A stretch of 64,000 bases of DNA from Geobacillus thermocatenulatus (GTDB taxonomy: Bacteria; Bacillota; Bacilli; Bacillales; Anoxybacillaceae): the NCBI RefSeq assembly GCF_002217655.1, contig NZ_NEWK01000002.1:559164-623163 (forward strand). Reading direction: 5' to 3'. Below, in pieces: positions 8,033 through 34,332 of this stretch. Both the position numbers and the translations under genes were made by a program. The notes beneath the pieces were generated by a model that saw nothing but the letters and a program-made list of their open reading frames with translations, made no database searches and was not told where the DNA came from. Each line of letters begins with the position of its first letter. Within the stretch, counting starts at the first letter, position 1.

Positions 8033-8233
8033 ATGCAACGTGGTAAAGTAAAATGGTTTAACAACGAAAAAGGTTATGGTTTCATCGAAGTGGAAGGCGG
8101 TTCCGACGTATTCGTTCACTTCACGGCGATCCAAGGTGAAGGGTTCAAAACGTTAGAAGAAGGCCAAGAAGTTTCGTTTGAAATCGTCCAAGGAAACCGC
8201 GGACCGCAAGCAGCAAACGTTGTCAAATTATAA
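8033..8233 (+). CDS. cspB: Cold shock protein (CspA/CspB family)
   Basis: A 66-residue single cold-shock domain that binds single-stranded RNA and DNA and keeps mRNA unfolded. RNP1 (KGYGFIEV, residues 13-20) and RNP2 (VFVHF, about 26-30) are intact and the length is exactly that of bacterial Csp proteins. It has its own promoter, a leader of about 130 bases and a terminator. Downstream genes match the B. subtilis cspD-ypzA-ypeQ-ypeP neighbourhood, so this may be the cspD equivalent. Confidence 0.96.
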
Positions 8234-8274
8234 GACTTCGTTGACATAGACGAGAGAACGGGAGCGGAACGAGA

Positions 8275-8303
8275 GGCACTCTGTTTAAGCAGGGTGCCTT
8301 TTT
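8275..8303 (+). terminator. cspB terminator
   Basis: GGCACTCTG pairs with CAGGGTGCC around a six-base loop (8275-8298) and is followed by five T residues. Confidence 0.85.
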
Positions 8304-8362
8304 CATTGCGATTTGCATAGATTCCATCAAACGGTAAACAATAAAGAAAGGGAGGTGTTCAT

Positions 8363-8632
8363 ATGGCCAGACGCGATGCCGACGTACATACGGGATACAA
8401 CGACGTAAAGCAAGTGGAAATGTTCGTCGAAACGGCGGAAAAAATGGTCGGCCAAGCGACGATGCAGCTCGATCCAGAGATGCTCAACCACGCTAAAGAA
8501 GCGATCGAAAACGCCCGCGGCCAACTCGCTCGCGCCCGTCAACAGGCGACTGGCGTCGACGGCGACTTTCTCGCCCAGTGCGAACAAAAACTGGCCCGCG
8601 CCGAGCACCAGCTTCGCGAGGCGCAGCAATAA
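8363..8632 (+). CDS. ypzA: DUF2564-family protein, YpzA-like
   Basis: An 89-residue, strongly helical and charged cytoplasmic protein, starting MARRDADVHTGYNDVKQVE behind AAAGGGAGG. It has heptad-like spacing of alanine and leucine and no membrane segment. Size, composition and position between a cold-shock gene and ypeQ/ypeP match B. subtilis YpzA. Its function is not known in the family. The convergent gene ypeQ lies more than 600 bases further on, beyond the structured repeats. Confidence 0.75.
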   Translation: MARRDADVHTGYNDVKQVEMFVETAEKMVGQATMQLDPEMLNHAKEAIENARGQLARARQQATGVDGDFLAQCEQKLARAEHQLREAQQ

Positions 8633-8644
8633 CAGCAAAACGAT

Positions 8645-8884
8645 ATATATAGATGCAACGAAGAAGTTTACCATATCCTTGACGGAAAAGCGGTTGCCCT
8701 CTTTTCGACTGTCGGAGGAAAGCCACAGGCTTCTCCGTCACGCCTTGGCGTGACGGAGGACCGAACAACCGCCTGCTTCACAGACCCATATATGGGTCTT
8801 TAAGCGGCGTTGTTCGGTCGCCCGACAGTCGTTCAAATACTCGGTAAAAGTTGCAAATGGTAAAGCTTCAAATTGCATCTATAT
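8645..8884. repeat. Structured repeat, copy A (multi-hairpin, 26-base terminal inverted repeats)
   Basis: Its ends pair with each other: TATAGATGCAA (8648-8658) with its complement at 8873-8883, then GAAG with CTTC, then TTTACCAT (8667-8674) with ATGGTAAA (8857-8864). Inside, CGACTGTCGG (8706-8715) pairs perfectly with 8822-8831. Within that closing stem are a 12-bp hairpin (8733-8758), a stem CCGAACAAC/GTTGTTCGG (8761-8817) and an 18-base palindrome (8782-8799). The whole therefore folds as a branched cruciform or RNA. It has no ORF. Copy B follows directly and shares the boundary palindrome. Confidence 0.75.
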
Positions 8885-9048
8885 AGATGCAACCAAAACG
8901 TTATATCTTTTCTTTGACAAAAAAAAGCCACTTATCAATGTTTCGACTGTCGAGGGCAAGCCTTTGCTTGCCTTCGTCACGCCTTGGCGTGAAGTCGATC
9001 CAATGCTCAGTAAAAGCTGCAAATGTGAAAACGTTAAATTGCATCTAT
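8881..9048. repeat. Structured repeat, copy B
   Basis: Paralogue of copy A with the same plan: AGATGCAAC start, TTTCGACTGTCG, a local hairpin (GGCAAG/CTTGCC, 8955-8972), the shared loop GTCACGCCTTGGCGTGA, then AGTCGnTCnAATnCTCnGTAAAAG, TGCAAATG and an AAATTGCATCTAT end. It lacks the large inner arm of copy A. The terminal stem uses AACGTT at 8897-8902 and 9030-9035 where copy A has an unrelated but also paired sequence. The boundary TTGCATCTATATAGATGCAA (8873-8892) is a perfect 20-base palindrome shared by both copies. Confidence 0.75.
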
Positions 9049-9138
9049 TAAGGCGGAGGACAAACAGCGATTTCCTTTTGGAGTGAAAAGAAGAACTGCT
9101 TTTGAGGTTTCTCTATGTTAAAACGTATGTTCTGTCAA

Positions 9139-9282
9139 TCACCGGCCTTCGCAGCGCATCCGCTTCTTCCGTTCAAACGCCAAAGCTTGCCTGGTCGCAG
9201 CCGGCACCGCCCCACGCTCGCGAAGGCGCAGATTGGGGCTCCGATCGCCCGCACCAACCGCCTCTTGAAAAAATTCCTTCAT
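9139..9282 (-). CDS. Possible 47-residue protein coupled to ypeQ
   Basis: A small open frame whose ATG overlaps the ypeQ stop codon (ATGA, 9279-9282), the usual sign of translational coupling. The product is very basic, starting MKEFFQEAVGAGDR and ending in FERKKRMRCEGR. I do not recognise it. It could instead be untranslated 3' sequence that is open by chance in GC-rich DNA. No counterpart is known to me in the B. subtilis locus. Confidence 0.3.
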   Translation of the reverse strand: MKEFFQEAVGAGDRSPNLRLRERGAVPAATRQALAFERKKRMRCEGR

Positions 9283-9497
9283 GACCGACGCGGACGCGGC
9301 GGCGCTGATAGAAGCATCTCCCCGTACTGCTGCATTTGTTCCCCAACCGTGCATTGCTGGATGCAAAACGATTGGGCGTACGTTTTGCCGTACTCTTTCC
9401 GGAACGTGCTTTTTAAAAAGCAGCCATCGCAGTACGTTTCCTCCAGCCATGCGATTTGATCCAATATTTCTTTGCGTCGGTTCCGCTTCTTTCCCAT
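9279..9497 (-). CDS. ypeQ: Zinc-finger domain protein, YpeQ-like
   Basis: A 72-residue protein with the family pattern ETYCDGCFLKSTFRKEYGK followed by SFCIQQCTVGEQMQ. It thus has two CxxC or CxxxC cysteine pairs expected to bind zinc. It lies six bases after the ypeP-like RNase H gene and probably shares its transcript, as in B. subtilis. The role is unknown. The C-terminal tail (PPRPRRS) is longer and more basic than I expect for the family. Confidence 0.8.
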   Translation of the reverse strand: MGKKRNRRKEILDQIAWLEETYCDGCFLKSTFRKEYGKTYAQSFCIQQCTVGEQMQQYGEMLLSAPPRPRRS

Positions 9498-34211: not shown

Positions 34212-34274
34212 TAAAACGGCAAAAACAACATCTACTCATTGATTCGTACGAAAAGATAGACGGCTCCTCGCTTT

Positions 34275-34332
34275 TATATAGATGCCATTTAAAGCTTTAC
34301 CATTTTTCTTTTTTACCGGTCATTTCATTTGC
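34275..34332. repeat. Relic end of the structured repeat family
   Basis: TATATAGATGCCATTTAAAG followed by CTTTACCATTT and TTTTTTACCGGT matches the right-hand end of copy A read in reverse (TATAGATGCAATTTGAAG, CTTTACCATTT, CTTTTACCGAGT) over nearly 50 bases. The rest of the element is missing. It lies between the convergent TRIC-family and EamA genes, a similar convergent setting to the tandem pair at 8645-9048. Confidence 0.6.

Follow-up and report, generated by a model that had tools for sequence, protein, structure and literature searches.

The repeat pair and its surroundings

Between a DUF2564 gene and a small zinc-finger gene of Geobacillus thermocatenulatus, the window (the whole stretch of 64,000 nucleotides that was analysed) carries two adjacent structured repeats, copy A and copy B, whose parts are as follows.

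8363..8632, + strand: DUF2564 gene (PF10819), upstream of copy A; in relatives a terminator-like hairpin follows the gene, and it is missing where the MITE pair sits
8646..8674, + strand: left terminal inverted repeat of A with flanking TA; IS630 ends are alike
8648..8883, + strand: copy A, a full-length MITE (TATAGATGCAAC...TTGCATCTATA), one of 122 distinct copies collected
8706..8831, + strand: core of copy A, a closed four-way junction; covariance-model match of 131.7 bits (from a model whose seed includes this sequence), and z -11.3 when folded as DNA
8706..8715, + strand: closing stem P1 of copy A, 5' side (3' side at 8822-8831)
8720..8732, + strand: hairpin P2 of copy A (GGCAAGCC type)
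8733..8758, + strand: hairpin P3 of copy A (GTCACGCC/GGCGTGAC)
8759..8819, + strand: long arm P4 of copy A (GACCGAACAAC.../...GTTGTTCGGTC, tip GACCCAT/ATGGGTC); copy B is without P4
8857..8885, + strand: right terminal inverted repeat of A with flanking TA; IS630 ends are alike
8873..8892, no strand: 20-base palindrome TTGCATCTATATAGATGCAA, the meeting point of A and B
8882..9048, + strand: copy B, a shortened MITE without the long arm, sharing the junction TATATA with A
8944..8997, + strand: reduced core of copy B (P1, P2 and P3, no P4), a probable deletion judged from locus L065
9279..9497, opposite strand: small zinc-finger gene (PF10782) on the other side of the pair

The original prediction had read this region as two adjacent non-coding paralogues, each closing on itself and built from a common set of blocks, and a listing of direct and inverted repeats with rechecked coordinates bears it out. 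Only small unrelated ORFs overlap the repeats, and the right end of copy B is GCATCTATTAAGG, which lacks one base of TATATA. In folding, copy A far surpasses its dinucleotide shuffles, with z -11.6 as DNA (reached by none of 200) and -10.6 as RNA; for copy B, z is -5.5 for the + strand and -7.0 for the - strand. Across the window, Rfam returned no match above gathering score, and two matches in the repeat region at E up to 10 both fall far below gathering; among nine relatives, the only match on the core was mir-890 at 26.5 of 56 bits (L481; G and L labels denote genomes and loci of our collection). A consensus scan of 8230-9300 for a sigma-70-like promoter found none, and promoter or terminator roles for the repeats were set aside as unsupported by consensus scans. 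No named family had been recognized for these blocks, and a search for a catalogued IS or MITE in Rfam and open-access papers likewise gave none: the repeat and core are undescribed in the portions consulted of PMC3049150, PMC2170065, PMC3446304, PMC8024623, PMC10969869 and PMC2267715, and their absence from the open-access literature searched is weak evidence.

An IS630-type MITE family

The two copies are members of a dispersed family of non-coding repeats of ~235 bp. In the organism's own genome 41 pieces match copy B, and 21 copies at 20 places were examined. Copy A is matched in all 14 genomes of the genus, in 26 of 41 genomes of the family (6 of 9 genera) and, by blastn, in 8 of 299 genomes of the order; among the hosts are Geobacillus zalihae, G. 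jurassicus and G. icigianus, and a copy with 85.7% identity over the full query lies on plasmid pHTA426 of G. kaustophilus. Phages gave no match to copy A, and a 16-base pattern scan of genomes gave, among the matches listed, many in unrelated bacteria that look like chance. The 122 distinct full-length copies (orthologues included) measure 206-239 bp from GATGC to GCATCT. Recent spread is suggested by three copies at different sites in G010 (L075, L076 and L080) that are identical at 229-230 of 231 positions; three other places in that genome have common flanks and therefore represent one duplicated segment. The window itself holds a decayed right-end fragment of the MITE at 34270-34330 on the other strand. 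At L090 (G006), a copy lies, by eye, inside a probable amino-acid permease gene, a stretch that is uninterrupted in relatives.

Among the identities originally proposed for the pair, that of a MITE is well supported by the repeat family, the IS630-like ends and a 2-bp duplication relative to empty sites. The latter, suggested from the start as evidence of mobility, were compared at 15 insertion sites; nine have exactly 2 bp between the flanks, and a tenth (L006) is a weak TA with 8 mismatches in the anchors. The empty site reads TA at L010, at L013, L076 and L083 (one sequence each), at L149 (two sequences), at L075 (16 sequences, all uninterrupted copies of the IS in which the element sits) and at L086 (12 sequences, likewise copies of one repeat). 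At L090 it reads CA (five sequences, plus CG once), with CA on both sides of the filled site. Relatives have TG at L004 (three, plus one TATATA), AA at L005 (five) and CA at L009, and these three sites, with TG, AA or CA as the empty dinucleotide, count against a duplication of TA. At L007, L018 and L021 a clean empty site was sought in relatives and none was found. Because the flanks are joined by two bases at empty sites, the mobile unit, whose ends are TATAGATGCA, is TATAGATGCA...TGCATCTATA with a 2-bp duplication. Integron-like recombination at the common TATATA, which had also been entertained, was dropped in view of these 2-bp duplications. The single TATATA belongs to G012 (L264), whose relatives carry either TG or a full copy at this site, occupied in the own genome by L004; it could be a footprint left by IS630 excision (TA, two nucleotides, TA) or a product of TA slippage. 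In G009 (L339), a different insertion of ~133 bp occupies the exact TA used by the MITE in G010 (L076).

The target resembles C-TA-G, with C before the left TA in 71 and G after the right TA in 83 of the 122 copies; a preference of IS630 for TA in CTAG is stated in the title of Tenzen and Ohtsubo (1991), as given in the reference list of PMC2170065. IS630-like elements of ~1.19 kb in relatives bear ends similar to those of the MITE. Across 30 IS loci, TATATA.AT[GC]C ends were found at 24 left and 21 right sides, mostly ~1.19 kb apart, and these 45 ends match the right-end consensus of the MITE at 12-17 of 22 positions beyond TATATA, a score that includes the 3-4 positions fixed by the pattern with which the ends were picked. 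Twelve matches to either end were reached by 158 of 20,000 random 22-mers, real ends included. N-terminal halves of IS630-like transposases occur in 39 of 41 family genomes, with 8 matches in the own genome; the two of these 8 whose loci were examined (L213 and L215/L231) are both broken, one of them with the end TATATAGATGCACATTG. An intact transposase gene of 355 aa in G011 scores 266 bits against NF033545 (the IS630 model; DDE_3). The ends and duplications together suggest that an IS630 transposase would move the MITE in trans, by cut and paste. As in IS630 and ISY100 of the Tc1/mariner superfamily, a TA is duplicated; unlike these, the MITE has no transposase gene.

Other short palindromic mobile repeats include BOX, Correia/NEMIS, Nezha and ERIC, several of which are flanked by TA. 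A close likeness is to RUP of Streptococcus pneumoniae (107 bp, with ends like those of IS630-Spn1), which, as described in PMC3049150, is also small and non-coding, with IS630-like ends and end repeats paired in the fold. That source also has S. pneumoniae repeats inserting into one another, as here. By description, the present MITE differs from RUP in being longer, in belonging to another genus and in its four-way core, which is found in elements with unrelated ends as well. The bcr1-bcr18 repeats of the Bacillus cereus group are likewise MITE-like structured intergenic repeats, some with conserved secondary structure and often transcribed (PMC3446304); the comparison with them is one of description.

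Other units lie beside the MITEs. One of ~110 nt (CCTGAAAATACCC...GGGAGTC) is fused to either MITE end, with the same side inward and with an outer TATATAG (L017, L050, L084, L087, L093, L094 and others), and was recognized by its end motif in 15 of the 122 copies. A third unit, of ~130 nt (TATATAAGTTGCAATAAAG...TTTCAACTTATATA), accompanies copies at L210 (550-675), L084, L089 and L154; at L010 the MITE plus this unit replace a single TA. By eye, L064 and L211 have apparent IS200/IS605-type insertions at or in MITE ends (hairpins, and a TnpB-like ORF in L211), and L212 has a 409-aa IS110-like ORF between two MITE left ends.

Nested insertion would account for copies A and B lying together. If the last TA in the left end of copy B was the target of copy A, the junction would be expected to read GCATC-TATATA-GATGC, as it does, and this event would have produced the 20-base palindrome. 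It should also have left a longer TA run to the left of A, where the sequence is ATATATATA. Comparable tandem junctions are seen at L091 of G006, at L225 of G009 (the same site) and, with an extra base, at L226 of G010. The palindrome at the meeting point thus stands as originally described, but the cruciform recombination site proposed for it is not needed, since nested insertion accounts for it. Similarly, the two-part arm is indeed present in A and absent from B, but the direction of change is probably loss in B and not gain in A: since the positional counterpart of copy B in G009 has the long arm, its absence here looks like a deletion, which may have followed the insertion of copy A. The nearest relative of copy A, with 98.2% identity, lies elsewhere in the own genome (G000:C2:346591), compared with 82% for its positional counterpart in G009, a contrast suggestive of gene conversion or of an independent insertion. 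The G006 counterparts of A and B look fused. In G013 and G003 the site has no element and instead a terminator-like hairpin (GAGCTTCGC...GCGAAGCTC-TTTTT); G000, G006 and G009 are without this hairpin at the site of the pair, so the insertion was accompanied or followed by a loss of ~35 bp.

A core in elements with different ends

Matches in G023 and G170 are mostly confined to the middle part of the element (query positions ~57-187 of 240); one in G170 extends over 5-229. The G023 elements have IS630-like ends, but different ones. G170 belongs to another family, and there the ends around the core are unrelated in most copies, the core itself remaining alignable at the sequence level. A covariance model of this core (~126 nt) was built from 31 cores and the search of relatives envisaged at the outset was run: the model matches 20 of 397 genomes of the order, in 11 of 135 genera and six families, with two-sided stem changes among the matches. 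Thirteen of the 20 genomes are from the window's own family, and copy numbers are floors, as the order-wide search used stricter filters and scored at most 8 candidates per genome. E-values are 1e-26 to 1e-23 for G170, which is in the seed, and 3e-13 to 8e-7 for other-family genomes outside the seed. G127, G206, G231, G340 and G168, from three further families, have the same pattern of core and ends as G170, and the elements fall into the following types.

Type a: ends TATATA[GC]ATGC; 2-bp duplication
Type b: ends TATATAGATTCAAGTTGAG, IS630-like; in G040
Type c: CAGGTGTGTTGATTA...AATCAACACTYGTG; 9-bp duplication; in family genomes and the own genome (L008, L017)
Type d: GGCTSTTTTC...GAAAASAGCC; 8-bp duplication; in G127, G206, G231, G340, G168 and G170

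The same four-way fold is therefore found in elements with unrelated ends, namely those with TATATA and a TA duplication, GGCTSTTTTC and an 8-bp duplication, and CAGGTGTGTTGATT and a 9-bp duplication. The longer duplications are evident from the flanks, which in type d are identical at 6.81 of 8 positions compared with 3.86 when re-paired (43 loci, including a few that are poorly delimited, such as L438, L464, L482 and L525), and in type c at 6.8 of 9 compared with 3.07 (10 loci). We do not claim an assignment of the type d ends to ISL3; one type d element (from G231) was searched for in plasmids and phages and gave no match. Type c MITEs with the four-way core are L008 and L017 in the own genome, L227, L238, L453, L484 and L516-L520, several of which adjoin or lie inside type a or IS630 ends; L453, for example, sits within the end of a type a copy. 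A RAGATH-18 RNA (73.9 bits) lies at 794-857 of L484 (G028), ~640 bp upstream of the type c core. The single core-model match in G150 (family f44) was left without an end type. Own-genome locus L026 (1445-1650) is a chimera that is type a (83%) up to P2 and continues as type c core and right side (89%), which is direct evidence of an exchange of parts between types within the core.

These findings bear on the reading that this is an ordinary IS630 MITE of one genus and that the likeness elsewhere only reflects how multi-hairpin MITEs look in general. Within the genus, the repeat does have the features of an IS630 MITE, and blastn finds matches in only 8 of the 299 order genomes; against this, the core aligns by sequence in G170 between different element ends, and non-seed genomes of other families score E 3e-13 to 8e-7 with the model. 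This reading falls if the G170 elements are real and do not come from a contaminant assembly, and the same pattern recurs in G127, G206, G231, G340 and G168. We consider it very improbable.

Conservation of the fold and a possible role of the core

Co-varying stems were part of the original prediction, for which two copies are insufficient to judge; the signal is slight over slid controls within the genus and strong once distant relatives are included. Within the genus, an alignment of 64 representatives (<95% identity) of the 122 distinct copies gave 25 two-sided cells in the inner helices compared with 12.4 in shuffles (reached by none of 500), and slid controls gave 11, 11, 15, 16, 16 and 21. 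For the whole structure the count was 73, compared with 44.6 in shuffles and 25-43 in slid controls. Within-genus covariation alone would not show selection on the fold. An unfitted MAFFT alignment of 31 cores (that of the window, 7 chosen to represent the 45 usable Geobacillus-type cores, and 23 from G020, G023, G027 and G170) gave 74 two-sided cells compared with 26.5 shuffled and 5-18 slid; two-sided changes fell in 9 of 43 pairs, in no excess over the 8.4 of shuffles, and the pattern is one of few events, each common to a clade.

The widest alignment comprises 43 cores of all types and was fitted to the fold model (44 were chosen of 83 sources and 43 matches passed E 2e-9, L026 and L518 being dropped at that threshold). 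Its 362 two-sided cells, compared with 87.7 in shuffles (sd 7.7) and 20-89 in slid controls, and its two-sided changes in 37 of 43 pairs, compared with 26.5 in shuffles, lean upward because the fold model served both to find the relatives and to fit the alignment. Folded singly, 42 of the 43 cores form a closed stem with three branches (~20, 20 and 60 nt), as do 38 of 43 when DNA energies are used; among single-base shuffles the count is 6 of 215. These figures too lean upward, the cores having been collected with the fold model. Four example cores have fold z of -11 to -15, and in six of the 43 the junction is fully paired. Replacement of whole stems between types is visible by eye, P1 reading CGACTGT/ACAGTCG, GGACCGT/ACGGTCC, GGGCAGT/ACTGCCC, AGGTCGT/ACGACCT or TTTCTGC/GCAGAAA according to type.

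With the proviso that the widest alignment was fitted to the fold, the MITE interior is shown to be no mere filler but a core of ~126 nt that forms a four-way junction, P1-P2-P3-P4. The earlier claim of selection on a fold holds for this core, in which stems have been replaced between families with pairing kept; this support does not extend to the outer stems, which are transposon ends. That the fold is kept in at least three kinds of mobile element suggests that it is itself useful.

Whether the useful molecule would be RNA or DNA is addressed in part by the mismatches that the stems tolerate. One reading is that the core is a functional RNA domain, transcribed with its neighbours or from its own promoter and serving to stabilize mRNA, to provide a processing site or as a small RNA, so that the host is unharmed by insertions or even benefits from them. 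For a guide-like RNA, also among the identities originally proposed, the results speak neither way. The strong pairing and the tips that recur across element types (GCAAGC, TCACGC and GGACAAAT/ATTTGTCC) are as it would have them, and a crude look at ORFs of at least 90 aa places 12 of 19 own-genome copies between co-directional, six between convergent and one between divergent ORFs. There is also a precedent (PMC3446304) in the MITE-like repeats of the B. cereus group, which are often transcribed and of which bcr3 correlates with mRNA decay. Over all pairs of the fitted alignment, 85 GU cells stand against 21 AC cells, which leans towards RNA; outside two ambiguous helices the counts are 32 and 17, with 1,502 of 1,581 cells Watson-Crick (for these counts the G020 row was assigned to genus g3, and G150 to type d, on the basis of their labels alone). 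On a tree of the 122 copies, however, single changes from a Watson-Crick pair led to GU 157 times, to AC 136 times and to other mismatches 200 times, and such near equality within the genus is unlike selection on one RNA strand; strand bias was accordingly rejected as proof of an RNA. The scan of 8230-9300 also found no sigma-70-like promoter, and on the core every Rfam match stays below the gathering score of its family. An RNA role is a serious candidate that we would nonetheless rate at rather less than even.

A second reading denies the core any function and regards it as a palindromic leftover passed on by descent, its ends swapped by nested insertion and recombination and its stems kept paired by hairpin-templated correction, which would yield GU and AC in about the equal numbers seen within the genus. 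Elements do insert into one another (a type c element in the end of a type a copy at L453), and copies lose arms (copy B, L021), recombine (the A/B fusion in G006) and form chimeras of types (L026). What tells against it is that the number, order and size of the arms (~20, 20 and 60 nt) and their tips recur in six families while the letters of P1 and P4 are replaced; decay should also drop arms more often, but here the search model itself favours complete cores. We regard a core without function as unlikely, if by no means negligible.

For a useful core, we prefer action at the DNA level, on the grounds that there are few G-U pairs and that changes within the genus do not favour them over A-C, and we do so tentatively, with a confidence well short of even. 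The core would act as a cruciform or as a single-strand hairpin junction formed in replication or transposition, and such a folded DNA junction would meet host junction-binding proteins. With low confidence, the folded core would then aid its element whichever transposase moves it. A broader formulation, which leaves the molecule open and which we hold at a little below even chances, is that the four-way-junction module of ~125 nt is a mobile passenger that has been acquired by unrelated transposon ends (IS630-like, 8-bp and 9-bp types), is still being exchanged (L026) and is kept across the order since, folded as DNA or RNA, it aids the persistence of its carrier. For the locus as a whole, we think it probable that the pair consists of nested non-autonomous IS630-type (Tc1/mariner) MITEs with a core that recurs in other elements and that may, in its folded form, aid the element.

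The usual view of a MITE is of two transposon ends around filler. Here the ends change while the interior stays, with its pairing kept, and we know of no bcr family in which one core is common to unrelated ends. If the proposal is true, there would be a class of structured nucleic-acid modules selected independently of the transposase, the role of the interiors of bacterial MITEs would become testable, and a new structured family would be available for the annotation of Bacillales-type genomes.
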